64,000 nucleotides of DNA from the NCBI RefSeq assembly GCF_003544915.1, contig NZ_CP032097.1:1612001-1676000 (forward strand), read 5' to 3'. Below the pieces are notes generated by a model, which was not told where the DNA came from, ran no database searches, and saw only the letters and a program-made list of their open reading frames with translations. Position 1 is the first letter of the stretch, and every line of letters starts with the position of its first letter. Made by a program: the position numbers and the translations under genes. Below, in pieces: positions 43,446 through 62,900 of this stretch. Origin of the DNA: Arcobacter ellisii. Lineage in GTDB: Bacteria > Campylobacterota > Campylobacteria > Campylobacterales > Arcobacteraceae.

Positions 43446-43916
43446 ATGTACAACAACACAATTATTTATATTTTTAATAGATTAGTAAGACTTGCAATAT
43501 TATTTTTTATACTATATTTGATTTTCACAAATTTTGGTACTTTTATGATAATTGTAGGTATTTTCTTCTTAATCATTGGATTTATCGTTTATAATTTTAA
43601 GAAAAAAATGAGAGCAAATAACTTTTCATTTAGATTTGATAGTTCACAATTTCAAAATGGACAAAATTTTGATTTCAAAGATTTTAGAAACTTCAATAAC
43701 TCAGGTTTCCAAGGTTTTGCAAATGCTCCTAGATTTGATGAAGTACAAAAAGCAAAAGATTTTTTTGGTTTTACTTCAAGTCCAACAAAAGAAGAGATTA
43801 AAAAAAGATATAAAGAGTTAGCAAAAAAATATCATCCTGATATAAATAATGGCGATGATGAAAAAATGAAAGAGTTAAATCATTATAGAGATATTTTGAT
43901 GAAAACTGTGGAGTGA
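43446..43916 (+). CDS. Membrane-anchored J-domain protein
   Basis: A 156-residue protein with two closely spaced helices (about 10-30 and 32-50) and a C-terminal cytoplasmic J domain (about 100-156) with the HPD motif in YKELAKKYHPDINNGDDEK. The linker is rich in Phe, Asn and Gln, with repeats of FxNxxNF type, like the G/F linker of DnaJ. It should recruit DnaK to the membrane. It stands alone, convergent with the export operon. Confidence 0.87.
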   Translation: MYNNTIIYIFNRLVRLAILFFILYLIFTNFGTFMIIVGIFFLIIGFIVYNFKKKMRANNFSFRFDSSQFQNGQNFDFKDFRNFNNSGFQGFANAPRFDEVQKAKDFFGFTSSPTKEEIKKRYKELAKKYHPDINNGDDEKMKELNHYRDILMKTVE

Positions 43917-43931
43917 ATTTAAAATTCACTC
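43911..43931. terminator. Hairpin at the J-domain / M50 junction
   Basis: GAGTGAAT pairs with ATTCACTC around a 5-base loop, including both stop codons. The T-tract is weak. Confidence 0.55.
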
Positions 43932-46039
43932 TCTCTTATTAGAACAGCAATAGTTTTTCTATAAATCTTTGAAATTAAACTTTCTGTTTCTCCTTTTGCA
44001 ACTAAAGTACCAGTTTTTCTACTTTTTAAATCCAATTCACTTTTTTCTAAATCAACTAAAACTTTATAATAAGCTTGTTCTGTTTTAATTCTTTTATTTC
44101 CATCTTGTCTTGTAGCTATTTCACCACCAAAATCAGATGATAATTCAGGAAACTCTAAATATGGAATTGAAACTTGTGAAATATTAGATATGTTTGAATA
44201 AATATCTTTTATATCTCCTGAACTAAATATAAATTTTGTTTGACTATTTTCTTTTAATAATTTAAAATCATTTTCATTACAAAACCCAACTATTTTGTAG
44301 TTTAAATTATCATATAAAACAAAAATAGGCTCTTTTTTACTTATCCATTGATTCTCTTTAAAAGCATTATAAAAATAAATCTTCCCATCAAAATCTGCTT
44401 TTATTTCAAATTTTTTAGTTATCTTTTCTAAACCTTCTAACTCATTTTGTTTTTTTTGTAAAGATTCTTCTAAAATAAATCTTTTGTTTAGATTCTCTTT
44501 AAATCCTGCTTGTTTACTTATTTCAAGATTTATTTGTTTTATCTCTTTTTCTATTTGAGAGATTTTAAACTCTATTTGAGGAGATTTTATTTTCATTAGT
44601 ATTTGGTCTTTTTTTACATTTTCTCCACTTGTAAAAAATATTTTTTCAATATATCCATCTTCACTTGGGTAAAACTCAAAATAATTCTTTGATTCTATTA
44701 TTGCTGGCATTTTTATGCTACTATTCCATGGAACAAACATCAATAAAAAAAATAAAACTAAAAGAGCTAAAGATATTTTATTTCTATTATTTAATTTTAC
44801 ATTTTCTCTTTTACTCCACCAAATTTTCAACTCTTTGTAAACAGGTAAAAAAATAAACCAAATAATTTCAACTAAAAATAGAATAATTCCAAGAACTTTA
44901 AAAGCAAAATAATAGACTAAAAAAGCTATTCCTAAAAATAAAAAGAATCTATATATCCAAGTTAAAATTGCATAAGTAATAAAAAAATTCTCTTTTTGTT
45001 TAGAAAGAATTTCAGGTTTTATCTCATCTAAACCCAAAATATTTTTTCTTATAAACCACTTTGCCATGGCAAATGACCGTGGTTGTAGATTTTTACTATC
45101 AGTAATATCTGATAAAGCATAATATCCATCAAATCGTAAAAATGGACTAATATTTATTAAAAGTGAACTAATCCAACTTGTAGTTGCAATAATAAATAAA
45201 ATACTTTTTAAAATCCCATCTGGTGCAAAAGACCATAAAAAAGTAGCAATTAATGCTAAATATAACTCAACTTTCATTCCAGCAAGAACTATTTGTAATC
45301 TTTGATATTTAGATTTTAATCTCCAAGAATCGGTTGTATCTGTATATAAAACGGGAAATAAAACTAAAAAAGCAACTCCCATAGTAGAGACTTTACAACC
45401 CAATCTTTTTGTGGTAAAAGCGTGACCTAATTCATGAAAACTTTTTACAAAAACCAAAGATAAAAAGTAATAAAAGAATCCCTCTTTTGAAAATAGATAC
45501 ATAAAAGTAGAGATAAAGTTTTCCCAATCCCTTAATACAAAAATAATTCCAAGAAATCCTAAAAATAAGACAATGTTTTGCCAAAGATTAGAATAGAAAA
45601 AATCAACTCTATTTTTGTTTTTTTCCAACCAAACATCTGGTTTTAACAAAGGAACTCTTATAAACAAATAATTATGAATTAACCATTTAAAGATATTTTG
45701 TTTTGATTGTTTATAACTATTTATCATTCTATTTGTATATTTTGAATCTTCACATAAAATCAAATTGTTATTAACTAAAAAATCTATAAAAGGCTGTAAA
45801 GAGTCTTTGTCAATATGATAATTTTTTGATTCTAGAATTTTTATAAATTCATCAATTTCTATATCACTTTGCCAATTTGAAATTAAGTCAAAGGCATCAA
45901 GTCCAATATTAAAATATTTATTTTGAATTGGGTCAAATAAAAGCCATCTTTTAGAGCCATCTTCAGCAACTGAAGTCTCTATTAGTTTTAAATCATTTCT
46001 GATTTTTGGTAAAATTACTTCTTGCTGTTGTTGAAACAT
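43919..46039 (-). CDS. PqqD-like / M50 site-2 protease / HlyD fusion
   Basis: A 706-residue inner-membrane protein. Residues about 8-90 resemble the PqqD winged-helix peptide-binding fold (YFNIGLDAFDLI, then IDEFIKIL). A polytopic M50 core follows, with zinc motif SFHELGHAF near residue 202 and the second S2P motif FLRFDGYYALSD near 303, both intact. After further helices to about 445, the C-terminus is a HlyD-type periplasmic adaptor (barrel-sandwich halves split by a coiled coil, about 450-690). I start it at the ATG at 46039, coupled to the upstream stop as TAATG with AGG 6 bases before, rather than the ATG 15 bases earlier. It is the last gene of the adhesin operon and probably processes or exports the adhesin. 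Confidence 0.87.
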   Translation of the reverse strand: MFQQQQEVILPKIRNDLKLIETSVAEDGSKRWLLFDPIQNKYFNIGLDAFDLISNWQSDIEIDEFIKILESKNYHIDKDSLQPFIDFLVNNNLILCEDSKYTNRMINSYKQSKQNIFKWLIHNYLFIRVPLLKPDVWLEKNKNRVDFFYSNLWQNIVLFLGFLGIIFVLRDWENFISTFMYLFSKEGFFYYFLSLVFVKSFHELGHAFTTKRLGCKVSTMGVAFLVLFPVLYTDTTDSWRLKSKYQRLQIVLAGMKVELYLALIATFLWSFAPDGILKSILFIIATTSWISSLLINISPFLRFDGYYALSDITDSKNLQPRSFAMAKWFIRKNILGLDEIKPEILSKQKENFFITYAILTWIYRFFLFLGIAFLVYYFAFKVLGIILFLVEIIWFIFLPVYKELKIWWSKRENVKLNNRNKISLALLVLFFLLMFVPWNSSIKMPAIIESKNYFEFYPSEDGYIEKIFFTSGENVKKDQILMKIKSPQIEFKISQIEKEIKQINLEISKQAGFKENLNKRFILEESLQKKQNELEGLEKITKKFEIKADFDGKIYFYNAFKENQWISKKEPIFVLYDNLNYKIVGFCNENDFKLLKENSQTKFIFSSGDIKDIYSNISNISQVSIPYLEFPELSSDFGGEIATRQDGNKRIKTEQAYYKVLVDLEKSELDLKSRKTGTLVAKGETESLISKIYRKTIAVLIRESEF

Positions 46040-47385
46040 TACCAACCTATCCATTGACGAACAGAAGTGATTGGTTTTCTAAATAGATAAAAAAACAAAG
46101 TTACTTTTTTTGAATAAATTTTAGCTGTTCCTCTAAGTCCAATAGAAGGAATATAACCATTCTCTTTTATATCATCAAAATCGGCAATAATTCTATAAGA
46201 TAAAATATTTTGTTCTGTAAGTTCAGGTTTATAAGAGATATATTTTACTTTTGCTTTCCAAGAATTTGTTGGGTCATTATCAAAAAAAGCTTTTACAATA
46301 TTATTCTCTTCTAAAAAAATAGCATCTGTAACAGGAAGCATAATTTTTAATTCTATTTTATTTGAATCGGCAATTAAAAAGATTCTTTCTCCTGTAGTTA
46401 CAGGTTTTCCTTTCCAATCATTTGGATTATTAATGATTGCAATTCCTTCTTCTTTTGCATAAATTTTTGTTTTATCAAGTTGCTCTTTTGCATAAGCTAA
46501 TTCTGCCTCTTTTAATTTTACTTGATTTTCAAGTTGTGAGATTTGGCTTTTTTGTTTTGGGTCTAAAAAACTACTTTGAGAAGCTGAAAATAACTCTGCA
46601 TTTGCCACATCTAATGTTCTTTTTGCAACCAAATAATTATTATTAAAATCTACATCATCAAATTTTACAATCAATTGTTCTTTTGAGATTTTATCATTTG
46701 GGAAAACTTTAACCTCTTCTATAACTGCATTTAAAGGAGAAGTTACCACATATGGATTTTTTGCATCAACTTCAAGTGGAGCTAAAACAGAGAGTCTAAC
46801 TGGTAAAAACATCAACAAAATCAAAAAAACAACTGCTATTTTAAAATATTTGTTTCTAAATGATATTTTTTTTAGAGTTTGAAAAATACCACAACTTCTC
46901 ATGGCAAATAAAAAATAAGCCAAAGAAGAAGAGAGATGTTTTAACATCAAAACATCATTTTCAAGCCATTTTTCTTCTTTAAATAAAAGAAAAATATAAC
47001 TTATTTCAGCATTTCCTTTGGCACTTTTTAATGGTACATATAAAATATTTGAAGGTGCAAATTCATTTATAGATTTATAATTTATCTCTTTTAAATCATT
47101 TTTAGCTTCAACAATAAAAATATCTTTTGATTTTTCGTTATTGTTAAAATCAATAACTATCTCTTCAATCCATTGAACATAAGGAGAAGTAGAATCAACC
47201 ACAGAAATATCTGAAATAGCAACAACTTTATATTTACCAGTTAAATCAGTAGTTAGAAGAACACCTTGTGAATAATTCACAAGATTTCTTGTTTCATTTA
47301 CTATTTGAAAATATAACTCTTTTATACTTTCACAATTTCTACAGTTATGCTCTAACTGTAGAAGTTTTGAGATGTTTGATTCCAA
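46039..47385 (-). CDS. GAF-like / HlyD membrane-fusion protein
   Basis: A 448-residue protein. Residues about 1-175 form a cytoplasmic GAF-like domain, beginning with a CxxC (HNCRNC), and include NYSQGVLLTTDLTGKYKV. A helix at about 181-202 leads to a HlyD-type periplasmic part: VVTSPLNAVIEEVKV as the first lipoyl half, a coiled coil near 265-310, then beta-barrel strands. A fusion of a cytosolic sensor domain to an export adaptor is unusual. The start is TTG at 47385; AGGA lies about 11 bases before it, and no better start exists. The stop overlaps the M50 gene by one base. Confidence 0.82.
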   Translation of the reverse strand: MESNISKLLQLEHNCRNCESIKELYFQIVNETRNLVNYSQGVLLTTDLTGKYKVVAISDISVVDSTSPYVQWIEEIVIDFNNNEKSKDIFIVEAKNDLKEINYKSINEFAPSNILYVPLKSAKGNAEISYIFLLFKEEKWLENDVLMLKHLSSSLAYFLFAMRSCGIFQTLKKISFRNKYFKIAVVFLILLMFLPVRLSVLAPLEVDAKNPYVVTSPLNAVIEEVKVFPNDKISKEQLIVKFDDVDFNNNYLVAKRTLDVANAELFSASQSSFLDPKQKSQISQLENQVKLKEAELAYAKEQLDKTKIYAKEEGIAIINNPNDWKGKPVTTGERIFLIADSNKIELKIMLPVTDAIFLEENNIVKAFFDNDPTNSWKAKVKYISYKPELTEQNILSYRIIADFDDIKENGYIPSIGLRGTAKIYSKKVTLFFYLFRKPITSVRQWIGW

Positions 47386-47407: not shown

Positions 47408-50400
47408 TTAAGCAAATAATCTTGTAAGATATGAACCATAACCATCAAGTTTTTGGTTTTCCATTGCTATTTGCTCTTTTAATCCCATATATTTTTCATC
47501 TGCATCAGCTTGATTTGCTTGATTTTTATTTTTTAGTTCTTTTAAATCAAGTTTTAGATTTAACACTCTTGTTGTTCCATCTTGATTAATCGCTTTGATA
47601 CTGATATCTATTTTTTCTAAATCTTCAGGAATTGTTCCTGTAATATTACCTGTTTTTGGATCAAAAAATAATCCAGCAGGTAAAGGAGTTCCATCTGTTT
47701 GCGTAACAATGAAGTTTTGAGAAAGATTTGTATCAACAACTTTTATTTCAATAAAGTTATTTTCAACTTTAATATCTTCAATCGTAATTCCAACTATAGA
47801 GAAAGAATCTTGATTTCCTTCATTAAATACAACTTGCCCATTTGTTAATACATTTAAGTCTACACTTGCTTGTAAAACTCCCTTAGAATCATTTGGATTT
47901 GACGTATTTGTTGTAGGAGTATTGTCATTTGTTCCATCTGTTGGATTATTTTGAGGAACTTCTGTACCTAAGAATCCAATTCCAGTATCAACTGATAAAC
48001 CATCATTTGAATTAAAATTTAAAACACCTAAATTACTAGAATTATTATCTGTAAAATTATTTAGCCCATCTGTTGAATTGTTTGTATTTGTATCACCATT
48101 AGTTGGAACTGTAGGAGTAGTAGGATTTGTTGGTTCTGCAATTTGTGCTGGTGCAATAACTAACATATTATATGTTCTTGTTACACTTGCTCCTTGAGAA
48201 TCTATTCCTTTTATTACAATTACAAAATTTCCAGACTGTGCAACTCTTCCTGAAATAATTCCAGTATTTGGATTAATAGTTAAACCCAAAGGTAAATTTG
48301 TTGCTTCAAATCTAAAATTATCTGTTAAATCTTTGTCACTAAATAAAGATGAAATATCTTTATTATAAACTTCTCCAAAAGGTATTTTAGAATCAATATT
48401 CTCAAAAGATACTGTTGGAACATCATTTGTACCTGTGATTGTTATAGAAAAAGTTGCAGTTGTAACTAAACCTTCAGCATCTCTTACATTTATAGGGATA
48501 ATAATAGTATCTGTTTCACCTTCACCAATATAATCATAACTTGAACTATCAAAACTATATGAACCATCATTATTTAATATAAATCCAGTTGGTGCTGTGC
48601 CATTTATACTAAAAGAGATTGAAGCACTATCAACATCACTTGCAGGTAATACCCCACTTACTGTATTTCCTTCAACTGTATTTTCAGATTGATTTGTAAA
48701 TACAGGTGCATCATTTACAGCATTTATTGTAATATTTATAGTTTTTTCATCTTCTAAAATATTACCCTCACCTACATTTGATTTATCATTTAACTTAATA
48801 GTTAAACTATCACTTCCATTATAATCTTGATTTGGCGTATATTTTAGATTATTGATAGCTGTTTGAAGGTCTGTCAAAGTTCCTTGAACTTTTATAATTG
48901 ATGTATTATTTGCCCCTTCTAAAACTGTTAATCCACTTAGTTGTGATAATTCTAATTTTCCTTCATTAACTCTTAAAGTTAAATCTAAAATTTGAGTTGA
49001 ATCAATAGCATCAATATCAGCTAAATTAATTGCATTTGTATTATTAAATACAAAAGAGTTATCTTCATTTATTGTAATAGAACTATTTCCTATTGAAATA
49101 ACTGGCGCGTCATTTACCGGAGTAACAAATATTGCAATTTGAGCTATATTACTTGTTTTTTGATCCGAAGAGAATTTGTATAAGAAAGTTTCTACTCCTG
49201 ACCAATTTTCATTTGGAATAAATGTAAATTGAGCAAAATCTCTATCATCAACTAAATTTCTATCATTATTAAAAATAAGTTTTCCATTTGTTAATTCAAA
49301 TCCAATAACTTTTGAAGTATCAGTTGAATCTATATTTCCATCACCATTGATATCATAATCTGCATAGATATATTTACTACTATCAAAAGCTGTTATAGTT
49401 CCAGCTGTTATTACTGTTCCATTTATATCTGTAATATCAGGTGTTCCTGTTCCAAATATATAGTTTATATTTGTATCATTTACATCTAAAATTAAAGAAT
49501 CAATATCTATTAAAATATCATTATCTTCTTTTCCAATAATATTGTCACTTTGAGCATTTGGAATTGCAGGTAAAACCATAACTAATTTTTGAGAAGTACT
49601 AACTCCTCCTAAATCATCAGTTGCAGTTACTTTTAAATAATCAGCACCAGGAGTTATAAAGTCATTTCCAAAACCAGCTGTGTAACTAATACCATTTGAA
49701 GCATTTAAAGTAGTATTTATTTGCTCTATCGTTCCTGTTAACGTAACAACTCTTGAGTTATTTCCACTAATTGAAGAGGCATTTACTCCATTTAAAATTG
49801 AATCATTTATATTAATTGAACCATAATTTGTTGTTTCAATTCTTACAGTTAAAATATCTCCATCTAAATCAGCAAAATTTATCATTGAACCTAAAGGCAA
49901 CATACCGTTTGGATTTGAAACTATTGATTTTTCAACTATTAAACTCTCATTTCCTAAACTAATTTGTGGTAAATCATTTATTGTTTGAATATTTACAACA
50001 GCCTCTTTTGTACTATATCTAGCAGTTGTTTCACCACCATTTCCACCATCACTTACTTTTATCTCAATTGTTCTTGCATTAGAGCTTAAATCATCTGTTG
50101 GATTTGAAAATGCAATCGCTCTTGCTAAAGCTTGAACTTGTGATGAATAGGCATTTGAGTTTAGATTAACCCTTAACTCTTTTCCATTTTGTCCATTATA
50201 AGTTGAATCAACAACTCCTATTATAACTCCACCATAAGTTACATTATTTCCACTTAAACTAATTCCACCAACATTTAAAATTGATAATTTATCTTCTACT
50301 TGTGCATTTTGTGAAATTTTAAAAGCAACATATCCACTATCATAACTTGTACCTTCTAAATCAGTAATTGTTATAGTTTTATCAATTAAAGTAGCAGCTC

Positions 50401-53400
50401 CATTTTCTGTAAAAGTAGGAGATGAAACAACTCCTCCTAAAAGTGGGGCATCATTTACTGATTCAATATTTATAGTTAAAACTTTTGAATCACTTGAACC
50501 ACTTCCATCACTTACATTAAAAGTAAATGTTTCTGTTACATTTGAAGATAAAGCATTAATAGCATTTGAATTTGGAACAAAAGTGTATTCGCCTGTTGAA
50601 CTATTAATAATTAAAGTTCCATAAGTTCCCCCTTTTGAAACTGTTCCATCACCATTTGAAGTAGCTCCATTTATTCCATATGTAAATGTAGTTCCACTAT
50701 CAATATCAGTTGCCGTTAATTTTCCTGTTGTATTAGAAAAATTATCAACTCCATCTGTATCTGTATAATAAATATTTGATACGCTTGATACTAAAGTTAC
50801 ACTATCATTTACCTCTTGAATATTCAGTGCTTTTGTTGAACTATGAACTACTGGTGTAGAATCTCCTGAAGAAGTTGTAATAGTTACAGTTTTATTTAAA
50901 ACTCCATTTATAGCACTTAAATCTGAACTATTTTGATAAGTCACTTTTTGTGCAATTTTTTCTAAAACATCTGAAGTCAATCCAGCAGTTGGATTAGCTT
51001 GAGTAACTTTTACATCATCTATGTAAAGTTGAGCTCCTAAGGCTTTTCCACCTGTTGCATCCCAAGAACCTGAAACAAACACAAATTTATAATCTCCATC
51101 TGTTGATACAGTTATAGATTCTGTTGCCCAGTTTGTCATAGCACTTGCATTTGCACCTGTTCGATTTAATATTATTTGATAATTAGATGGATTGTTTACA
51201 TCAACTATATAACCAAATACATCATAAGCATCTCCACCACCTTGCGCTTTCCAATCAAATTGAACAGTATCTCCAACTTTTAAAGATACAGCTGAATCAG
51301 AATAAATATATGGTCCTCTAACTATCGCATATCCACTTGTTGATGTTAAACTTGAATTCATTTTTATAGAATTATCATTTCCACCATCATTATTTATGTA
51401 TGTATAATATGTTTCTCTTCTTAGAGTATCTCCATCTTTATCAGTTGCTGCTATTACTCTTGATGGATTTGTTGTATCTTCTGGTGTTGCAAGTCCTGCT
51501 ATTGTATCAACTCCTAAATTTACCCTACCATTTACAATAGTCCAACCATCAATATTTACTATAGCATTTGTTGTAGAACTTAAAAGTCCAACTGAACTAT
51601 TTGCTGAATTAAAGTTTCCATTGGCAAAATCAACTGAAAAATTTATTTTTAATTTTTGTCCATTTTCACCATTATAAACAGCATCTATTTGTCCAATAAC
51701 ACTTGCACTTGTTCCATTTCCTAAATAAACAGAATTTCCAACAATACTTACAGTATCAGCTGTAATATCTGGTGTCATTACTTTTTGAATTCCTAAAGTT
51801 TCACTTGAAGTTGAACTATTTAGGTTAAATTCTATAAATCCTCCACCATAAAAATGTTCAGTATTTATAGTTGTATCAGTTAAAATAAGTGTTGAATCTG
51901 CTTGTTCTACATATGTAGAAGCTGTTTCAGCTCCTGCTGTTATATTTATTGTTAAAGTAGTTGTATCACTTAACTCTCCATCACTTACATTTAATGTAAA
52001 AGTCTCTGTTGTATTTGAATCTAAAGCTGTAATTGCTGTTTGATTTGGAATAAATTGATAATCTCCAGTTAAACTATTTATAACTAATGTTCCATAAGTT
52101 CCAACCATAGTTTCAACTAAAATGCCTGTTCCTGAATCTATTTTATAAGTTAAATTTACATTATCAACATCATTAGCTACTAATGAAGTATTTATAGTTC
52201 CATTTATTGAAGCACCAGAAGAATCAACTATTTGTATAGTTGAAGGAGATGTAATAACTGGTGCATCATTTACAGCATCTACTGTAAAAGTAGCTGTTTT
52301 AATAGTAGTTGATAAGCCCTCTTTATCTAAAGCGTGCCAAGTAAAACTATCTGTTCCAAAATAGTTTAAGTCTGGTTGATAAACTAATTTTTCTAAATTA
52401 GCAATTGCAATAGTATAGTTTGTGCTCTCTATTTTAATTCCATCTAAATATAAATCACCATTTGTCGGTAAAGTATCAATTATAAATGATTGGGGAAAAT
52501 AGTTTGCCTCAACTAAAGTCTCTATAGCTGTTATTTTTGCTGCTTGTTTATCTGTATCAGATGGATTCATCATAGCATCTTGAATTATTGCCATTTGAGC
52601 ATTATAATCAACAGCACTTACATTTGCATTATTATTTACATCATTTGCATCATGATAAATATCAGCTGGATTTATAGTTGCAAAACTAAAAGATGTATCT
52701 TCATTTATAGTTCTTGTAAAATTATCTACAATTGCTTGTTCATTTACAGATGTTACATTTAGTGTAAAACTTTGTGTTGTAGTTTTATCTCCATCACTTG
52801 CACCAAGTGTAATAACCGTAGAACCATACATATTAGCTTTAGGTGTAAAAGTAAAAGTTACTGTATCTCCTGGTGAATTAGTAGTGCTTCTAATCATAGA
52901 AATACCGCTCATATCAAGTAAATTTGTATTACTAGAGCTTACTATTCCTTCTATATACTCTTCAGGTGTAACATCATCACTAAAAATAAGTTTAATAGAG
53001 TTTGCACTTGAATCTTCAGTTATTGTGATACTTCCATTATTTAATAAATCATTTCCATTGTAAATATTTACAACAGGAGCATTATTTGAACTACTATCTA
53101 AAATAGTAACTACTCCCGTTGCTGTATTTGACCATCCAGTTGAATCATTTGTATCACCAGTTGTCATTACACGCCAGTTAACATTTGTACTTTGTCCTGA
53201 ATTATTACCTGCATCAAAACGATAATTATTCAAATCAGCCATTGAAATAACCAATCTGCCATCTTGTAATGTATATCCTGAAACTTGTGTTAAAGTTGAA
53301 ATATCTGAAATATCAATCCAGTTAGAATCATCTGCTTTATCACCACTTCCATCATATACTTGAAATTTACCAACTGTTGGTAAAGAGATAATTTCTAATT

Positions 53401-56400
53401 GATAAGCTTCTGTCATTACATTGTTATCAACATCTGTAAAATTAGGTTGGAATTGGTCAAAAGATTGTTTTGAATTTGGACCAACTGTAGCAGCCATAGC
53501 ATTTGCAACAGGTTTATCATCAACTGGAGTTATATCTATAGTAATACTATCTGTATCTGTTGATACTCCATCATTTGTAGTAATAGTTAATATTGTATAA
53601 GCTGTTCCATTTGCATTTAAAGTTGGAGAATAAGTCAATCCTTCTAAACTTGCATTTATTTGAGATACTGTTCCTGTTATTTGAACTGTTGTTGAACCAT
53701 TATTTGTAATAGTAGCTCCACTTCCTTCTGTTAGTGTTAAAGTTCCTTTTCCACTTCCAATTGATAAAGTTGTTGTTAAAATAACTGATGGGTCATTTAA
53801 AGCATCATTATCACGAATACTTATTGCATTATTATTTGCAGTTGAAAAAACAATTGCCGTATCTTCTGTTGTTGTTTTTGAAGAAGGAACGTTATTATTA
53901 ACTGGTAAGTCATTTACACTTAACACTCTAACTGTAAGATTCGCAGCAGTTAAAGTTCCACCATATCCACCATATTCAACTATGTATCCTGCTATTGCAC
54001 TATTATTTGTTGCTGCAAAATCATTCCATTTTCCAGCATTTACTCCATTATAATAAAAGTGTGCAACATCTTCTCCACCTCTTGAAGAATCAGCATTATT
54101 TGGCTCTGAACTTGCCCAATTTGAATACTGCCCATTATATGATGATCCATAATTTGATGTAGAATTTGTTCCTGCGTTTGTATCACCCGTCCAAAATTGA
54201 GTTCCAGATTCAGGTCCAGTTACCCATTTCCAAATACCTTCACTATCTGCATCACTTGCACCAATCCAACCATTTCCCCCAGCCATAGAAGTAATAAGAG
54301 TATTTTCACTATCTGAAGTAATTGTAACAAGATAACCATTTAAGCCATAAAGAGTTCTAGATTCTGCATCAGTTTTAGCTTGATCCCAAGTAATTCCAGA
54401 AGAACTTACAAACTCATAATAGTGTCCATTATCAGGGTTGAAAAATTTTCCAGTTTGATTTATTCTATATGGTTGTTCACCACTTCCTTGACCATCATTT
54501 ATAGTGATTGTCAAAGGATCATCACCAAACCAATTTGCATCACCTTGATATCTAAGTGTTGCAAGTGCATTATTTAGATTTGTTACAGTTCCAGTTATTT
54601 GAAAAGTTTTATTTACAGCATCCCAAGAAGTAGTTACTCCAGTCGAATTTCCTAAACTTAAAGTTCCATGAGATGCATCTATTGTAACTGTTAAATTACC
54701 ACTTCCAATATCTTTATCCCCAACAGTTAAACCAGAGATTGTAATAGAAGTATCTTCATTGACAGTTACTGTTTCTTTTCCTGAAATATATGGTAAGTCA
54801 TTTACTCCTATAATTTCAATAGATCTACTCAATGAAACATCAGTAACTCCACCTGAAGTAATACCATTTATACTTATATTTTTTGTTTCTCCTAATGTAT
54901 TTAAAGTTTCTGAACTATTATAATAAGTTAAATTTCTAGTAATATATTGTAAAACACTTCCACTAATCGCTGGTGGCATAACAGCTTGCGTTACAACTAT
55001 ATTGTCTATATATAAACTTGCACCTGCTGCTCTTCCAAAAGTTTCATCAAATGTTCCAGAAACAAATACAAACTTATAAGTTCCTGCTGTATTTATATTT
55101 GTATTTTTTGTTGTCCAAGATGTTTCACTTGTTCCAATACCTGTTTGATTCAATAACTCAACTGTAGCACCTGTATTTACATTTAATAAATAAGCATAAA
55201 TATCATAAGCATCATCTCCACCTTTTGCTTTCCAATCAAAAGATACAGAATCTCCACTTGATAAAGTAACTGTGCTATCAGAAACTACATAAGGTCCATG
55301 AACAATATCTCCACCTGCTGCTGTTGTCATACCTGATGAATAAAGTCTTAATGCTCCATCTTCAAAAGCATAAGAATATACAGCACCTGAAGGTGTATAA
55401 TCATCTCCTCTACTTACTTGACTTGGATTATTTGGATTTGATGGTGTTGGTGTTGAATCAATAGGTGTTGCCCATCCATCAATAGTAGAAGTTCCAGCAA
55501 CTCCATTTTGTCCTAACATTAATTGTTGAAGATAAACAGTCCATCCACTAATATCAACAACCGTACCTGTTTGAGTAGCTGTAGTATCAGTAAAGTTTCC
55601 ATTTATAAAAGTATTACTAAAATTAATTCTTAATTTTTGTCCATTTTCACCATTGTATGTATTATCAATAGAACCAACTAAAACAGCAACTGAACCATTT
55701 CCTATATAAACTCCGTTTCCAACTATACTAATTTGTCCATTTACAATACTTGCAGTTGAAGCTTTTACTAAAGATAGAGTCTCTGTACTTGTACTTCCTG
55801 ATAAACTAAACTCAACATATCCCCCTGAAAAATTAGTTCCAGAACTAATAGTTACATTGTTAGCTACTAATGTAGCAGAATCATTTTCAGTATATGTTAC
55901 ATCTGCAAGTCTTGAAGAATAATTTTCAACCACTATAGTAGAAGTTTCAATACTTCCTGTTTCGATTTCTAAATCCCAATCACCATTTACATTAGAATTT
56001 CCAGTTACATCATTTGAAGCAGCAACATCAGCTTGAGTTTCACTTGATAATAAATCAATAAACTCTTGTCCAGTTCCATCACTTGCAACATTACAACCAT
56101 AAAGTAAAATATCCCCATTTTCATTTAAAGAAGATTTCATACTTTGTAATACTTCATCAAAATTACTTAATGTATTTTGATTTAATACATCATTTCCAAC
56201 ACTTATTTCACCAGTATTTCCATGAGATAAAATATGTATTGCATCTATGTTCATTTCATTTTTTAATATAGAATTTATATCATCCATTGAACTTACAAGA
56301 TATACTTCAACACCCTCTCCCACACCATCAACTAATGTTTGATAATCACTAACTGTAATATCTACAAAGGCAACTTCTCTTCTAGGTTTTTCAAATCCTT

Positions 56401-56596
56401 GAACAGCTTGTGCCTCATGTACAGAATTTTCAGCACTATTATTTGTTACATCATTTGTTGTAACTGAATCATTTGAAGTTGTTGCAAAACTACTATCATC
56501 AAGTACATCAACAGCTGTTGCAACAGCTGCTCCATCAAAAAGAACTCTTTGCTCTAAAGCACTAATTATTGGTTTTTTTAAATTTCTTTTTTTCAT
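47408..56596 (-). CDS. Giant LEPR-motif, DUF4347, cadherin-like adhesin
   Basis: A 3062-residue surface protein without a Sec signal peptide. The leader contains LEQRVLFDGA (14-23), an LEPR-XLL-type motif of very large exported proteins. DUF4347 spans about 75-225 with H125 (LSHG) and C168 (YGC). Then come a repeated module with an inserted jelly-roll-like domain (about 233-600), a cadherin-like domain, a C-type lectin domain (about 719-880; EPNN near 829, WND near 856), more cadherin-like and VCBS repeats, a second copy of the module (about 1556-1930), a third copy without insert (about 2047-2209), a dockerin-like calcium loop near 2412 and two putative-Ig domains near 2725-2810 and 2935-3018. 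No RTX nonapeptides, LPxTG or autotransporter barrel are seen. Start ATG follows AAGGA. It lies within its export operon and likely mediates attachment. Confidence 0.9.
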   Translation of the reverse strand: MKKRNLKKPIISALEQRVLFDGAAVATAVDVLDDSSFATTSNDSVTTNDVTNNSAENSVHEAQAVQGFEKPRREVAFVDITVSDYQTLVDGVGEGVEVYLVSSMDDINSILKNEMNIDAIHILSHGNTGEISVGNDVLNQNTLSNFDEVLQSMKSSLNENGDILLYGCNVASDGTGQEFIDLLSSETQADVAASNDVTGNSNVNGDWDLEIETGSIETSTIVVENYSSRLADVTYTENDSATLVANNVTISSGTNFSGGYVEFSLSGSTSTETLSLVKASTASIVNGQISIVGNGVYIGNGSVAVLVGSIDNTYNGENGQKLRINFSNTFINGNFTDTTATQTGTVVDISGWTVYLQQLMLGQNGVAGTSTIDGWATPIDSTPTPSNPNNPSQVSRGDDYTPSGAVYSYAFEDGALRLYSSGMTTAAGGDIVHGPYVVSDSTVTLSSGDSVSFDWKAKGGDDAYDIYAYLLNVNTGATVELLNQTGIGTSETSWTTKNTNINTAGTYKFVFVSGTFDETFGRAAGASLYIDNIVVTQAVMPPAISGSVLQYITRNLTYYNSSETLNTLGETKNISINGITSGGVTDVSLSRSIEIIGVNDLPYISGKETVTVNEDTSITISGLTVGDKDIGSGNLTVTIDASHGTLSLGNSTGVTTSWDAVNKTFQITGTVTNLNNALATLRYQGDANWFGDDPLTITINDGQGSGEQPYRINQTGKFFNPDNGHYYEFVSSSGITWDQAKTDAESRTLYGLNGYLVTITSDSENTLITSMAGGNGWIGASDADSEGIWKWVTGPESGTQFWTGDTNAGTNSTSNYGSSYNGQYSNWASSEPNNADSSRGGEDVAHFYYNGVNAGKWNDFAATNNSAIAGYIVEYGGYGGTLTAANLTVRVLSVNDLPVNNNVPSSKTTTEDTAIVFSTANNNAISIRDNDALNDPSVILTTTLSIGSGKGTLTLTEGSGATITNNGSTTVQITGTVSQINASLEGLTYSPTLNANGTAYTILTITTNDGVSTDTDSITIDITPVDDKPVANAMAATVGPNSKQSFDQFQPNFTDVDNNVMTEAYQLEIISLPTVGKFQVYDGSGDKADDSNWIDISDISTLTQVSGYTLQDGRLVISMADLNNYRFDAGNNSGQSTNVNWRVMTTGDTNDSTGWSNTATGVVTILDSSSNNAPVVNIYNGNDLLNNGSITITEDSSANSIKLIFSDDVTPEEYIEGIVSSSNTNLLDMSGISMIRSTTNSPGDTVTFTFTPKANMYGSTVITLGASDGDKTTTQSFTLNVTSVNEQAIVDNFTRTINEDTSFSFATINPADIYHDANDVNNNANVSAVDYNAQMAIIQDAMMNPSDTDKQAAKITAIETLVEANYFPQSFIIDTLPTNGDLYLDGIKIESTNYTIAIANLEKLVYQPDLNYFGTDSFTWHALDKEGLSTTIKTATFTVDAVNDAPVITSPSTIQIVDSSGASINGTINTSLVANDVDNVNLTYKIDSGTGILVETMVGTYGTLVINSLTGDYQFIPNQTAITALDSNTTETFTLNVSDGELSDTTTLTINITAGAETASTYVEQADSTLILTDTTINTEHFYGGGFIEFNLNSSTSSETLGIQKVMTPDITADTVSIVGNSVYLGNGTSASVIGQIDAVYNGENGQKLKINFSVDFANGNFNSANSSVGLLSSTTNAIVNIDGWTIVNGRVNLGVDTIAGLATPEDTTNPSRVIAATDKDGDTLRRETYYTYINNDGGNDNSIKMNSSLTSTSGYAIVRGPYIYSDSAVSLKVGDTVQFDWKAQGGGDAYDVFGYIVDVNNPSNYQIILNRTGANASAMTNWATESITVSTDGDYKFVFVSGSWDATGGKALGAQLYIDDVKVTQANPTAGLTSDVLEKIAQKVTYQNSSDLSAINGVLNKTVTITTSSGDSTPVVHSSTKALNIQEVNDSVTLVSSVSNIYYTDTDGVDNFSNTTGKLTATDIDSGTTFTYGINGATSNGDGTVSKGGTYGTLIINSSTGEYTFVPNSNAINALSSNVTETFTFNVSDGSGSSDSKVLTINIESVNDAPLLGGVVSSPTFTENGAATLIDKTITITDLEGTSYDSGYVAFKISQNAQVEDKLSILNVGGISLSGNNVTYGGVIIGVVDSTYNGQNGKELRVNLNSNAYSSQVQALARAIAFSNPTDDLSSNARTIEIKVSDGGNGGETTARYSTKEAVVNIQTINDLPQISLGNESLIVEKSIVSNPNGMLPLGSMINFADLDGDILTVRIETTNYGSININDSILNGVNASSISGNNSRVVTLTGTIEQINTTLNASNGISYTAGFGNDFITPGADYLKVTATDDLGGVSTSQKLVMVLPAIPNAQSDNIIGKEDNDILIDIDSLILDVNDTNINYIFGTGTPDITDINGTVITAGTITAFDSSKYIYADYDINGDGNIDSTDTSKVIGFELTNGKLIFNNDRNLVDDRDFAQFTFIPNENWSGVETFLYKFSSDQKTSNIAQIAIFVTPVNDAPVISIGNSSITINEDNSFVFNNTNAINLADIDAIDSTQILDLTLRVNEGKLELSQLSGLTVLEGANNTSIIKVQGTLTDLQTAINNLKYTPNQDYNGSDSLTIKLNDKSNVGEGNILEDEKTINITINAVNDAPVFTNQSENTVEGNTVSGVLPASDVDSASISFSINGTAPTGFILNNDGSYSFDSSSYDYIGEGETDTIIIPINVRDAEGLVTTATFSITITGTNDVPTVSFENIDSKIPFGEVYNKDISSLFSDKDLTDNFRFEATNLPLGLTINPNTGIISGRVAQSGNFVIVIKGIDSQGASVTRTYNMLVIAPAQIAEPTNPTTPTVPTNGDTNTNNSTDGLNNFTDNNSSNLGVLNFNSNDGLSVDTGIGFLGTEVPQNNPTDGTNDNTPTTNTSNPNDSKGVLQASVDLNVLTNGQVVFNEGNQDSFSIVGITIEDIKVENNFIEIKVVDTNLSQNFIVTQTDGTPLPAGLFFDPKTGNITGTIPEDLEKIDISIKAINQDGTTRVLNLKLDLKELKNKNQANQADADEKYMGLKEQIAMENQKLDGYGSYLTRLFA
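49970..50455 (-). repeat. Module C of the adhesin (no insert)
   Basis: Encodes residues about 2047-2209. It matches the ends of modules A and B (TENGAATL start, YNGQNGKELRVNL core, a QALARAIAF segment where the others have NLTYYNSS or KVTYQNSS) but lacks the inserted jelly-roll-like domain, so it shows the basal unit. Confidence 0.65.
50805..51930 (-). repeat. Module B of the adhesin
   Basis: Encodes residues about 1556-1930. Parallel to module A in order and motifs: TYVEQADSTL, VYLGNGTSASV, YNGENGQKLKINF, then the insert with FDWKAQGGGDAYDVFGY and LYIDDVKVTQAN, then KVTYQNSSDL and IQEVND. Confidence 0.75.
54795..55900 (-). repeat. Module A of the adhesin
   Basis: Encodes residues about 233-600. 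It carries TYTENDSATL, VYIGNGSVAVL, YNGENGQKLRINF, the insert with FDWKAKGGDDAYDIYAY and LYIDNIVVTQAV, then LTYYNSSETL and GVND. Similarity to module B is clear at protein level. Confidence 0.75.
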
Positions 56597-56613: not shown

Positions 56614-57333
56614 CTAATTATTTTGTTGGTAAAAGTTTGCTGTTGCACTCATACCTGGTATTATATTTTCAAATGGTTTTAATAATTTTGCTCTTAAAGT
56701 AATAGATTGACTTGTTGGGTCAACAACTGAATCAATTTGTACAACTTGAGCTTTTACTGTAGTTTTTGTTTCATCAATACTTAAATCAAATTCAATTCCT
56801 TTTTTTAGCCAAACAAGCCAAGAAGAAGGAACTACAACCCTTGCTTCAAGATTATCTAATCCAACTATTTCTAAAAGTTCATCTTGTGGTTTTATACTTT
56901 GATGTTTTGATACTTTTTTTGAAGCTATTCTTCCATCAAAAGGTGCTTGGATATCACATCTTGATACATTTATAGATGCAATATCTCCTTCTGCTTTTTG
57001 CTTATTATAATTCTCTTGTGAAATTTGTATTTCAAAAGTACCAATAGAACCATAAGTATCTAACTTCTTATTTTTTTCAAGTTGAAGTCTTGCTATCTCT
57101 TTTTCAACTTCAATTTTTCTTTTTTGAGCTTTATATACAGAACAATCTATTTTTATTAAAGATTCTCCCTTTTTAAAAGAGTCTCCTTCAAATTTTGAAA
57201 GTTCAACTATCTCTCCTGCAATTTCACTTGAAAGAACTGTTCTATCAAGTGAAACAATAACTGCTCTTGAAGTCAAATCACTATTTGCATACAAAGAAGA
57301 AGCCAACAAAACAAAACTTAGAAATTTTTTCAT
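56614..57333 (-). CDS. Periplasmic adaptor (membrane-fusion) protein, RND/HlyD type
   Basis: A 239-residue exported adaptor. The signal peptide (about 1-16, ending SLYA) has no lipobox. The lipoyl halves are SSEIAGEIVELSKFEGDSFKKG and CDIQAPFDGRIASKKV, separated by a short coiled coil (about 68-115), followed by a beta-barrel domain to GMSATANFY. At this size the membrane-proximal domain is missing or minimal, short for the family. It has two cysteines (C64 and C130 regions), unusual in such adaptors. It lies between the tolC-like gene and the adhesin gene, 11 and 17 bases away, so it is a part of that system. No RND pump gene is present. Confidence 0.87.
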   Translation of the reverse strand: MKKFLSFVLLASSLYANSDLTSRAVIVSLDRTVLSSEIAGEIVELSKFEGDSFKKGESLIKIDCSVYKAQKRKIEVEKEIARLQLEKNKKLDTYGSIGTFEIQISQENYNKQKAEGDIASINVSRCDIQAPFDGRIASKKVSKHQSIKPQDELLEIVGLDNLEARVVVPSSWLVWLKKGIEFDLSIDETKTTVKAQVVQIDSVVDPTSQSITLRAKLLKPFENIIPGMSATANFYQQNN

Positions 57334-57344
57334 TAAATTACCTT

Positions 57345-59138
57345 TTATTGAAATTGAACTCTATTTTTTTCTACTAACCAAAAATTTTCAATAACAATTG
57401 ATTTTAAAGATACACCATTATCTTTTGCGATTTTTGATACATCATCAGATTTTTTTACCACATATTCATTTCCATTTATGCTAAGAATTTCCCCCTCATA
57501 AATAGTTATTTTTGAATTATAAAAATTTCTATTATAAAATTCATCATCTACTTTGAACTCTTTTTTTGGACTATTTTCTTCATTTTCATTACTATTTTTT
57601 ATCTCTGTTTCAGTATCGATTTTATCTGTTGTTGATAGAGTTATAACTTGATTGTTTTCTTCATTTTTAGTTTCTACTGAAATATTAGGTTTTGAAATTT
57701 CAGAATCTTTTTTATCATCTATTCCCATAGAAGCGAAAATTCTTCCATAACTATTTTGAACATTTGCATATGATGATGAGTATCTAAGAGTTGCTAAAAT
57801 ATGATTTAGTTTTTCTTTAATTAAAATAAGTCTACTATTAATATTTAAGTCATTTTCTACTTGTGTTAAAGTGTAAATATCATCTGCAACATTTAGATAA
57901 TCTTTTGCTAATAAATACTCTTTTTTAGCTTGATTAAATTTCACTATTGATAAATGAACTTGAGATAAAACAGCCATTGATAAAGCTAATTTTTGCTCTT
58001 TTGCAATTTCAACTTGTGTTTTAGCTAATTTATTCATCTCACTACCTTTAAACACATTTAAAAGATTCCAAGAAACATTTGCTCCATATGAATACCAATC
58101 ATTATTTAATAAATAATCACTATTTTCATATGATAATGAAGTATTTAGATTAATTCCTGGAAGCATTTTCAATTTTGCTGCTGTAATTTCTTTTTCAGAA
58201 ATTCTCTCTTGATATCTACTTTCTGTAACTTCAGGTCTATTTTCTAAAGCTAAAAGTTCCATTTGTTCAAGGTTCATATTAAATTCAGGAATTTGATAAT
58301 TTTTTTCAACTTTGTCTGCAAGTTCAAACTCAATTCCAGGTTTTAATCCCATTAATTCTGCTAATTCAACTTTTGCAGAGATTAAACTGCTTTCTAAAGT
58401 ATGAAGAGATCTTAAAATATCAAGTAATTCCCTTTGATAAGATAATGATTCCATAGGAGTTTTACCAACTCTTTGATTTTGAACTTTTTTAGAATCACTT
58501 AAAGCTTGATTTACTTCAACCATCATAGGTTGAATTCTTTTTAATAAATCTTGAGCAGAAACAGCTTGATAATATGCTCTTCTTATCTCTTGAGTTAAAT
58601 TATGTTCAACTTTTTTCTCTTTCTCTTTTGCTATTAAAAACTTATCAGCTTGTTGTTGAGCTCTTACATAAGATAATCCAAAATCTAAAATATTCCAGCT
58701 AAATCCAATATCTGAAGTTACTCTTTCTTTATCTTGAGAAATTGAATATGAAGGATTAGCCCCTAATGGTTGTGGTTCACCATTTACAAAAGATGTACTT
58801 GCACTTGCTGCATAATTGTTTCTTTCAGAATATCCAGCACTTGCAGTTAAACTAGGTAACATATCATAATATACTAAATCTAATTGTTGTTGAGAAAGAG
58901 CAGTTTCTAGAACTTTTACTCTTTTTTGTAAATTATGATTAAGTCCTCTTTGAATAGCTTCGTCTAAAGAAATTGGTTTTGTTACAGGTAAAACAACTTC
59001 ACTTAAAACTGATAAATCTTTTTTAACCTGTTCTTTCACTTCCTCTTTTAGCATTGGTTCTGGTTTTATAGCACAACCAGTTATCAAAAAAGAAGTTACA
59101 ACCGATAGAACCACTACTTTAGAAACTTTTCTTATCAT
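57345..59138 (-). CDS. TolC-like outer-membrane lipoprotein with LysM-like C-terminus
   Basis: A 597-residue outer-membrane efflux protein. The lipobox LITGC puts the lipidated Cys at 22. Residues about 55-470 are the duplicated TolC fold (ISLDEAIQRGLNHN, WNILDFGLSYVRAQQQ, then ENRPEVTESRYQERISEKEITAAK and WNLLNVFKG). A low-complexity acidic linker (about 475-545) leads to a C-terminal domain of about 49 residues, EYVVKKSDDVSKIAKDNGV and so on, which resembles LysM. TolC homologues do not normally end this way, and it may fix the channel to peptidoglycan. AAAGG precedes the ATG. It is the first gene of the adhesin operon. Confidence 0.88.
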   Translation of the reverse strand: MIRKVSKVVVLSVVTSFLITGCAIKPEPMLKEEVKEQVKKDLSVLSEVVLPVTKPISLDEAIQRGLNHNLQKRVKVLETALSQQQLDLVYYDMLPSLTASAGYSERNNYAASASTSFVNGEPQPLGANPSYSISQDKERVTSDIGFSWNILDFGLSYVRAQQQADKFLIAKEKEKKVEHNLTQEIRRAYYQAVSAQDLLKRIQPMMVEVNQALSDSKKVQNQRVGKTPMESLSYQRELLDILRSLHTLESSLISAKVELAELMGLKPGIEFELADKVEKNYQIPEFNMNLEQMELLALENRPEVTESRYQERISEKEITAAKLKMLPGINLNTSLSYENSDYLLNNDWYSYGANVSWNLLNVFKGSEMNKLAKTQVEIAKEQKLALSMAVLSQVHLSIVKFNQAKKEYLLAKDYLNVADDIYTLTQVENDLNINSRLILIKEKLNHILATLRYSSSYANVQNSYGRIFASMGIDDKKDSEISKPNISVETKNEENNQVITLSTTDKIDTETEIKNSNENEENSPKKEFKVDDEFYNRNFYNSKITIYEGEILSINGNEYVVKKSDDVSKIAKDNGVSLKSIVIENFWLVEKNRVQFQ

Positions 59139-59246: not shown

Positions 59247-59251
59247 TTGGA

Positions 59252-59257
59252 TATAAT
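59252..59257 (+). promoter_or_regulatory. -10 box (TATAAT) for the regulator-kinase operon
   Basis: A perfect TATAAT 5 bases behind the last TGAGAT half-site and 35 bases before the start codon at 59292. The half-site at 59230 occupies the -35 position. Confidence 0.6.
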
Positions 59258-59291
59258 AAAATCTATTATAAATATAATTAGAAGGTTTTTT

Positions 59292-59966
59292 ATGGAATTT
59301 TTGAGTGATAAACATCTTTTACTATTAGAAGATAGTGATGAATTTATCGAAAATGCAATCTCTTTATTTAATATGTTTGTAAAAAAAACATTTGTAGCAA
59401 AAGATATAAAAGAGGCTTTTAAGCTTTTAGAAAATGAAAAAATTGATTTGATAATTTCTGATATTCATCTAAAAAATGAATGTGGTTTAGATTTTATAGA
59501 AAAATTTAGACAAACTAACAATCAAACCCCAATTCTTATCCTTTCAGGTTATAAAGATGAAGATTTATTATTTAAAGCTATGACTTTAAACTTAAGTGGA
59601 TATTTAATAAAACCTATAAATTTTAAAGCTTTAATTGAAGCTTTTGAAAAATGTGAAGCTAAACTTAAATTAAATAATCAAAAAATTATTGATTTAAAAG
59701 AAGGCTTTAAATACGATAAAGAACTAAAAAAAGTTATTAAAGAGAATGAAGTTTTTGAATTAAATAAAAAAGAGATTCTATTTTTTGAAATGTTATGCGA
59801 AAATCAAAAAAGAGTTATAACAAAAGATATGTTTATAAAATTTGTATATGAATATGAACCGATGAGTGATAGTGCATTAAATAATTTTGTTTTAAGAATA
59901 AGAAAAAGATTTGGCAAAAACTTTTTACACACTATTCCTGATGTTGGATACAAGATGATAATATGA
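59292..59966 (+). CDS. OmpR-family response regulator of the adhesin locus
   Basis: A 224-residue regulator. The receiver (about 8-115) has ED in LLLLEDSDE, phospho-acceptor Asp in LIISDIHLKN, and Lys in YLIKPI. The winged helix (about 135-224) has LNKKEILFFEML, EPMSDSALNNFVLRIRKRF and VGYKM. Both domains look functional. I use the ATG at 59292 with AGAAGG 6 bases upstream; the longer frame extends through the promoter. It overlaps the kinase by 4 bases and probably binds the TGAGAT operator just upstream, controlling itself and the tolC-adhesin operon. Confidence 0.9.
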   Translation: MEFLSDKHLLLLEDSDEFIENAISLFNMFVKKTFVAKDIKEAFKLLENEKIDLIISDIHLKNECGLDFIEKFRQTNNQTPILILSGYKDEDLLFKAMTLNLSGYLIKPINFKALIEAFEKCEAKLKLNNQKIIDLKEGFKYDKELKKVIKENEVFELNKKEILFFEMLCENQKRVITKDMFIKFVYEYEPMSDSALNNFVLRIRKRFGKNFLHTIPDVGYKMII

Positions 59967-62900
59967 AAAATCAAAATAAATTGATAATAAGAATTTTTTT
60001 ATTAAGTTTTATTCTAAGCCAAACTCTATTTGCAAATTTAGAAAAAGTTAGTTTACAGCTAGAATGGAAACATCAATTTGAGTTTGCAGGTTTTTATACA
60101 GCAATCGAAAAAGGTTATTACAATGATGTTGGTTTGGAAGTTGAAATAAAAGAGTTTGAAGATGGTATAAATATAACTGAAGATGTAATAAATGGTAAAT
60201 CTACTTTTGGTATTTCCTCTTCTGCTTTGATTTTAGAAAGACTAAAAGGGAAACCTGTTGTTTTAGTTGCTTCATATTTCAAACAAAATGCTTTAGCCTT
60301 AGTTACAAAACCAGAAATCAAAACTCCTGCTGATTTAAAAAATAAAAAGATAATGGCCTTAAAATCAGAGATGGAACAGACAAGTTTAGGAGTTATGTTA
60401 AAAGATTATGGAATAGATGAAAACAGTTATACTTTAATAAACCATGATTTTAAAACAGATAAATTTATAAATGGTGAAATTGATGCTATGAGTATTTTTA
60501 TAACTTCGCAACTCTTTGAATTGGATAAATTAGGTATAAAATATAACGTACTAAATCCAGCAAATTTTGGGATTTATTCTTATGATGTAGAACTTTTTAC
60601 AAGTGAAGAGATGATAAATAAATATCCAAAAAAAGTTAGAGACTTTGTAAATGCAACAAATAAAGGTTGGGAATATGCCTTTAAAAATAAACAAGAAATT
60701 ATTGATTTAATTTATGAAAAATATTCAAAAAGAAAATCTAAAGAGGCTTTATTATTTGAAGCCAACCAAACAGAACAACTATTTAAAACTAATATCTTTA
60801 GAATTGGAGCAATTACTCCTGAATTAATAAAACTTAATGCTGAAATATTCTCAAAGTTAGGATTAGTAGATAGAAATTTTGATATAAATAAAATATCTGA
60901 AGAGTATTACTTTGACCCAAATACTAAAATAAAAAATTTATTAACAATTGAAGAAAAAAACTATTTAGAAAATAAACACATAATAAAAGTACACAATGAA
61001 GCAAATTGGGCTCCAATTAATTACAATATAAACAATACTCCAAAAGGTTTTTCAATAGATTATATGAATTTAATAGCTTCAAAAATAGGAATAAGTGTTG
61101 AATATATTTCAGGTTTTACGTGGAAAGAGTATTTAGAAAAACTTAAAAATAATGAAATTGATGTAATGCTAAACATTGCAAAAACAAATGAAAGAGAAAA
61201 TCATTTTATTTTCACATCTCCTTATATTCACTCAGTTGATATAGTTTATGTAAGAGAAGGCACAAATAATTTTAAAAAATTAAGTGATTTTAATGGCAAA
61301 AAAATGGCTGTAATAAGAGGTTTTTACGAAGAAGAATTATTAAAACAGAAATATCCAAATATAAAACTATTAAGTGTTGAAAATTCATTGGCTGGACTGA
61401 AAAAAGTTGCATTTGGTGAAGCTGATAGTTTTATAGATGATTTTGCTGTTGCTAACTATTTTATTACAAATAATTTAATTTCAAATCTAAAACCTGCTTT
61501 TGAAGTTAAAGATGAAGAGTTTAATTTAGATTTAGCTATGGCAACAAATAAAGAAAATGAAATCTTAAGAAATATTTTAGAAAAAGGTAAAGATTTAATC
61601 ACAGAAGAAGAGTTATTAAATTTGAAAAAAAAATGGATTAAATCAAATCAAAATAAAGCAGCTTCAAATATACCTTTTACAAAAGAAGAAGAAAGATATT
61701 TAAAAAATAAAAAAGTTATTACAATGTGTGTAGATCCCGATTGGGAACCTTTTGAAAGACTAGATAACAATAATAAACATATTGGAATTGCAGCTGATTT
61801 AATTAAATTAATATCTTCTAAATTAGGAGTAGAAATAGAAGTAATTCCTACAAAAAATTGGGATGAAAGTATAATCTTTTCAAAAGAAAAAAAGTGTGAT
61901 ATTCTAAGTTTTTTAAATGAAACACCAAAAAGAAAAGAGTGGTTAAATTTCACAAAACCAATATTTGAAGACCCAAATGTAATAGTAACAAGAAATGAGT
62001 TTGAAACTCCAAAAGATTTATCATTTTTAGAAAACAGAACTATTGCCATTCCTTCAAATACAGCTATGTATGAATTATTTGAAAAAGATTTTCCAAATCT
62101 TAAAATCGTTCCAGTTGAAACAGAAGCAGAAGCTTTTTCTTTAGTAGAAAATAAAAAAGTTGATATGACTGTTAGGTCTTTAATAATTGCAGCTTACACT
62201 ATAAAAAAAGAGAATTTATTTAATCTCAAAATTGTAGCTCAACCTTTAAAATACAAAAATGTTTTAAGAATTGGTGTTTTAAAAGAGGATATTATTTTAA
62301 AAGATATTTTAAATAAAGCTATAAATGAAATATCTAAAAAAGAACAAGAACAAATAATAAATAATCATGTATCAATAAAACTTCCTGATAATTCAGAATA
62401 TCTCTCTTTAATTATTTATGTTTTAATATTCATTAGTTTGATAATTATAATAATTTTATTATGGAATTATCAACTAAGAAAAAAAATTGCAATTGAAATT
62501 GAGAAAAATTCAATACAACAAGATTTAATGTTTCAACAAAACAAAAAAGCTGAACTTGGAAATTTAATAGGAAATATATCCCATCAATGGAGAGATTCAC
62601 TCACAAAAATTGGTTATATAAATCTAAATCTAAGAGCAATGCTTTTACAAAACAAAGATGTACCTAGAGATTTTTTAGATAAAAGCACACTTGAAATTGA
62701 AAAAAGTTTGGATTTTATGTCAGAAACGATGCAAAACTTTTTAGATTATTATAAACCTTCTATAAATGTTTTAGAGTTTGAAGTTTATGATTCAATAAAA
62801 AGTGCTTTAAGTATTATTGATACAAAAATAAAAAATAATAATTTGCATATAGAATTTAAAGGAGATTTTGATATAAAAATCAAAGGTATTAGAAATGAAT

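Follow-up and report, generated by a model that had tools for sequence, protein, structure and literature searches.

RRE domains of RiPP pathways (PqqD, the lasso B1 proteins, LynD, CteB) serve short peptide precursors and their modifying enzymes. M50 proteases also take part in RiPP maturation, e.g. MpaP, YydH/EpeP and the RRE-M50 protein of a thiocillin-type cluster on an Anoxybacillus plasmid, with short peptides as substrates. The M50 protein EpeP is thought to carry out both cleavage and export of its epipeptide (review PMC10885120). The NCBIfam domain LEPR-XLL (NF012209) describes an N-terminal LEPR motif on very large repetitive proteins. A five-gene operon of Arcobacter ellisii can be compared with each of these and is read here, with moderate confidence, as encoding a tripartite system, guided by an RRE, that secretes giant proteins, in which an RRE-M50-HlyD fusion protein is the inner-membrane, substrate-reading part.

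The window, i.e. the whole 64,000-nt stretch of DNA that was analysed (contig NZ_CP032097.1, positions 1,612,001 to 1,676,000), carries the operon on its minus strand, to which all window coordinates refer unless a plus sign is given. The genes lie in the order TolC, small adaptor, adhesin, GAF-like/HlyD and, last of the five, RRE-M50-HlyD, 11-22 nt apart except where two of them overlap by 16 nt. They encode a TolC-family outer-membrane channel of 597 aa with a lipobox-like N-terminus, assigned from its sequence and relatives (57345..59138), a small periplasmic adaptor of 239 aa with a Sec-type signal peptide (56614..57333), a giant adhesin of 3062 aa with tandem-95 and VCBS repeats, the predicted substrate (47408..56596), a second adaptor of 448 aa comprised of an N-terminal GAF-like region, a TM helix and a HlyD domain (46039..47385), and the RRE-M50-HlyD fusion protein of 711 aa (43919..46054). 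The 16-nt overlap is between the last two genes. The second adaptor is termed GAF-like because Pfam confirms GAF only in one of 19 relatives and in sister-clade proteins. An earlier note had placed the fusion protein at 43919-46039. The protein is indeed there, read on the minus strand (the plus strand over 43919-46054 is full of stops), but 46039 is its second in-frame ATG, and the start codon at 46054 is favoured since the 'MDRLVM' start is conserved in close relatives. No cognate ABC transporter is present among the operon ORFs or recurs in the cassettes of relatives; ABC genes near some relatives, encountered in a search for conserved extras, were set aside as ordinary flanking genes. The operon ORFs do not make up a RiPP cluster, the predicted substrate having 3062 aa and no modifying-enzyme ORF being among them. 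Divergent from the TolC gene lie a response regulator and a sensor kinase with solute-binding-protein-like domains (59247-63181, +), possible regulators of the operon, and convergent with the operon end lies a gene for a small membrane protein that ends in a DnaJ domain (43446-43916, +).

The RRE/PqqD-like domain (residues 11-103, 45746..46024) is assigned from its AlphaFold2 fold and structural matches. Pfam matched M50 and HlyD in the window protein with PqqD not detected; among 45 relatives it gave weak PqqD matches in three (best E 0.0097). Nor did PqqD emerge when a profile of the N-terminus was searched against PDB sequences; a sister-cassette protein of identical layout does pass the Pfam PqqD cut-off (24.1 bits vs 23.4). 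Structure prediction against PqqD, proposed in the earlier note as a check, was run on residues 1-109 using the sequences of the 45 relatives (pLDDT 83). The model has the b-b-b-a-a-a topology of PqqD, with strands at 23-27, 36-41 and 46-50 and helices at 52-59, 67-76 and 83-95, and superposes on known RREs, i.e. a three-stranded sheet followed by three helices. The best solved match is a lasso B1 protein with bound leader (6jx3, Z 8.2), with a lasso B1-leader complex (5v1u, Z 8.0) and PqqD itself (5sxy, Z 7.9) as further matches; the LynD and TruD heterocyclases, CteB, MccB and McbB are also among the leading ones. The shared fold and topology with RiPP RREs (PqqD, lasso B1 proteins such as TbiB1, LynD, CteB) extends over 70-87 residues at Z 6.1 to 8.2, and as middling Z scores are common for small domains, the weight rests on nearly all leading matches being RREs. 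Invariant positions of the domain include R19, G33, D41 and L98, with P16, W37, W61 and F92 nearly so.

The M50/S2P domain with its seven TM-length helices (residues 156-440, 44735..45589) is identified by Pfam (E 2e-8), by the full-length model (pLDDT 87) and by structural matches to an RseP orthologue (Z 10.6) and SpoIVFB (Z 9.8). The fold is that of an S2P, with HExxH and a downstream D ligand within TM helices. The zinc/catalytic motif HELGH occupies residues 207-211 (45422..45436) and the FDGY motif residues 308-311 (45122..45133), D309 being the likely third zinc ligand. Both motifs had been described as intact; H207, E208, H211, D239, R307, D309 and G310 are invariant in 86/86 proteins from Campylobacterota, Pseudomonadota, Nitrospirota and others, of which invariance only that of HExxH is free of scan bias, since the scan that fetched most of the proteins used FDGY and YTD patterns, with HExxH not among them. 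The closest NCBIfam models are those of RiPP M50 proteases, namely daptide MpaP (51/51 members) and epipeptide YydH/LiaK (33/51), with scores under the curated cut-offs; the window protein reaches 131.8 bits against MpaP, far under the 300-bit cut-off. Alignments by hhalign run through RRE and M50 into MpaP (E 2e-23) and into the RRE-M50 protein of the thiocillin-type cluster (E 3e-14), so that the RRE-like N-terminus and M50 domain of each align end to end with the family.

The C-terminal HlyD/MacA-type periplasmic adaptor domain (residues 443-691, 43982..44728), supported by Pfam, model and structural matches, displays a barrel-sandwich, an alpha-hairpin, which is short (residues 492-547), and a beta-barrel. 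It matches MacA at Z 15.2 over residues 444-689, and MexA also. The seven TM-length helices of the full-length model lie between RRE and adaptor, which are therefore on opposite sides of the membrane, the RRE being cytoplasmic if the adaptor is periplasmic. The domain order claimed from the sequence, a PqqD-like domain, M50 and a HlyD-type adaptor in one chain, is thus borne out by PqqD topology, S2P fold and MacA-like C-terminus. Handover to the exit channel, also suggested in the earlier note, gains plausibility from the TolC and adaptor genes, though it would involve three adaptor proteins rather than one chain.

The leader of the window adhesin is ALEQRVLFDGAA, with the motif ALEQRVLFDGAAV at adhesin residues 13-25 (56522..56560), and reads 'ALEPRxxFDGAA' in relatives. 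Counted as [LM]E-x-R-x-x-[FLY]-D-[GA]-[AS] inside the first ~100 residues, the motif opens the giant ORF in 32 of the 33 cassettes with the start in view, the window included. The lone cassette without it is on Magnetospirillum plasmid pMSR-1, where the giant ORF was taken as annotated and may be incomplete. The leader differs from a typical Sec signal in that no hydrophobic core runs through it without a break, its most hydrophobic 12-residue stretches including or adjoining charged E, R or D. The motif is kept while the remainder of the adhesins diverges; the C-terminus is conserved too, within a subgroup. The leader resembles LEPR-XLL while being, unlike the classic form, an FDGAA variant: the window adhesin does not reach the NF012209 cut-off (11.1 vs 17 bits), which is passed by relatives in the genomes of loci L042 and L044.

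Beyond the window, the cassette machinery recurs in Campylobacterota, Pseudomonadota (including SAR11 and E. coli plasmids) and Nitrospirota. Relatives in other phyla are likewise accompanied by TolC, small adaptor and GAF-like/HlyD genes, and the position of the adhesin gene varies. Among complete E. coli genomes 24 of 5426 carry the cassette, mostly on plasmids, as do plasmids of Citrobacter, Kosakonia and Hafnia. Many SAR11 (Pelagibacteraceae) genomes carry it as well, with the adhesin gene adjoining the small adaptor (loci L052, L054, L057, L060-L063, L069 and L071-L076). Within the window's own order a full-length RRE-M50-HlyD protein was found in just one other of 200 sampled genomes (68 percent identity); adaptor-only matches in that search were dismissed as ordinary HlyD proteins. 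Against this one genome within the order, a Colwellia MAG encodes a protein with 58 percent identity to that of the window, a pattern that makes the cassette patchy and probably horizontally spread. The open-access literature, searched for LEPR-XLL, RRE fusions and SAR11 giant proteins, yielded no description of the cassette or of a partner machinery for such leaders; the arrangement is real and widespread, and apparently undescribed there.

Co-occurrence of leader and fusion protein was determined by searching a 22-row leader profile and a 51-row RRE-M50-HlyD profile over the same 299 Pseudomonadota genomes. The cassette is common among them, a full-score RRE-M50-HlyD protein (500 bits or more) being encoded by 73. 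The leader is present in 70 of the 73, vs 2 of the 226 others (Fisher 6e-62, computed ignoring relatedness and thus overstating independence, since the sampled genomes are related). Three genomes have the protein with no leader detected and two show the reverse. In Nitrospirota the leader genomes and the RRE-M50-HlyD genomes are the same 16 of 118. For at least 58 of the 96 tested leader matches, the same contig has a listed RRE-M50-HlyD gene no more than 30 kb away, and some leader proteins are encoded in trans, i.e. from other contigs (G619 C1, G558 C2 and C10, G357 C1). Since in two phyla the fusion protein occurs almost only in genomes encoding leader-tagged giant proteins, it probably recognises the leader in order to process and export these proteins. 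Leader recognition had been proposed in the earlier note from the domain order. It gains strong comparative support from the near-perfect and specific tie of LEPRxxFDGAA to RRE-M50-HlyD and from the closest curated M50 families being RiPP leader proteases.

A lower-scoring sister clade of RRE-M50-HlyD follows the other leader variant. In none of the 12 genomes with that clade only was the FDGAA leader found, and 11 of the 12 have the LEPR-XLL leader in its classic form, on ORFs most of which are very long; 20 control genomes with neither clade gave 2 weak LEPR-XLL matches. The sister cassette of a Pontibrevibacter plasmid has in a row the genes for a LEPR-XLL protein, DUF3467, GAF-HlyD, RRE-M50-HlyD, a SecA paralog (PF07517, E 1e-96) and an adaptor. 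SecA paralogs adjoin the sister-clade proteins at L151, L152 and L157; in the sister cassettes L151, L152, L157 and L166 a dedicated SecA paralog stands beside RRE-M50-HlyD and GAF-HlyD; some of these cassettes have a SapC protein, and giant proteins of the RTX or LEPR-XLL kind are encoded nearby. The SecA paralog in the inspected sister cassettes suggests a Sec-type route or motor, which the earlier note does not consider. At L155 (G401) the sister-clade adhesin starts LEPRLLFSA, intermediate between the two leader variants.

In the order of steps that we infer for RRE-guided export, the leader at the adhesin N-terminus (ALEQRVLFDGAA) would be bound by the cytoplasmic RRE, probably as an additional beta-strand, the way RiPP enzymes take up theirs. 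Cleavage would follow within or close to the conserved GAA segment, at an M50/S2P site that, like that of SpoIVFB, is open to the cytoplasmic face. The covalently attached adaptor, together with the GAF-like/HlyD protein and small adaptors, would link the complex with the TolC-family channel. The inner-membrane step would probably be powered by SecA/SecYEG, with the housekeeping SecA acting here and a dedicated paralog in the sister cassettes, or alternatively by the M50 protein, a role also proposed for EpeP. EpeP is the nearest published precedent for such a mechanism. No SecA paralog is found at the LEPR-FDGAA cassette loci, and the window's genome encodes one SecA.

Several observations weigh against RRE-guided export. 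Linked genes co-occur anyway, leader and protein are mismatched in the three plus two genomes above, the pMSR-1 giant ORF is without the motif as annotated, and the RRE of a sister-clade protein aligns poorly to that of the window protein (hhalign, RRE alignment against a single sister-clade RRE). The LEPR-FDGAA cassette has no motor, and two LssB-type T1SS ABC exporters pass the curated cut-off elsewhere in the window's genome (G000 C1:287227-289302 and 1151509-1153629). The adhesin could leave via such a general exporter, with the M50 protein unused on it and serving as scaffold or regulator; this is considered very unlikely, given that the cassette supplies its own TolC and adaptors, that the M50 catalytic residues are invariant in all 86 proteins, that the leader co-occurs with RRE-M50-HlyD, and that no LssB exporter passes the cut-off in the searched SAR11 cassette genomes, which are drafts and may encode PrtD-type exporters. 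The RRE-like domain could also be a relic of its fold or bind another partner, e.g. the GAF-like protein, with co-occurrence arising only from the shared operon. A shared fold shows no function, the winged helix of RREs being found in DNA-binding regulators too (PMC7470986), and the domain is less conserved than the M50 part in the relatives. Eight of its columns are nevertheless at least 95 percent conserved, leader proteins occur in trans as well, the leader variant tracks the RRE-M50-HlyD clade and the motif outlasts the divergence of the rest of the adhesins, all of which makes this alternative improbable.

A further point against RRE-guided export is that the adhesin C-terminus, conserved in a subgroup, could itself carry the export signal. 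In LapA-type export the N-terminus is the end that stays behind, and LapA is released through cleavage by LapG. By analogy the adhesin could be exported C-terminus first and stay anchored to RRE-M50-HlyD through its LEPR leader until the M50 site cuts it free, perhaps under the control of the GAF-like partner. The N-terminal location of the leader, the conserved C-terminus and the adjacent GAF-like/HlyD gene, with GAF detected in the sister proteins, are in keeping with such a switch. It leaves the missing ABC motor unexplained, though, and requires the leader to stay in or near the cytoplasm while the adhesin body is outside; it is regarded as unlikely, if less so than the other two alternatives.

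If RRE-guided export is correct, leader recognition of the RiPP type also serves to export proteins that rank among the largest in bacteria, the LEPR-XLL domain obtains a partner and a function, and it is explained how giant adhesins can be exported when the cassette has no ABC exporter of its own. With the leader motif, binding and cleavage become directly testable. More tentatively, the cassettes could represent a separate secretion class in which RRE-M50-HlyD reads LEPR leaders in RiPP style and SecA, whether the housekeeping one or a dedicated paralog, drives their proteins into an ABC-free adaptor-TolC conduit. The LEPR-XLL domain would then gain a function across phyla, including SAR11, and SecA-driven, ABC-free export of LEPR proteins, if demonstrated, would constitute a new class. 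The parts are already known, i.e. RRE, M50, adaptor and TolC, plus an M50 precedent for cleavage and export. Unlike in the known RiPP RREs, the RRE is here fused to a protease and an adaptor, and the candidate leader is that of a 3062-aa adhesin instead of a short precursor. The thiocillin-cluster RRE-M50 protein is without the HlyD adaptor, and neither it nor MpaP adjoins a TolC gene. With type 1 secretion and tripartite efflux (HlyBD-TolC, MacAB-TolC) the cassette has in common an adaptor, a TolC-family channel and a giant adhesin as cargo; unlike these systems, it has an RRE-M50 protein as its inner-membrane component in place of an ABC, RND or MFS pump.
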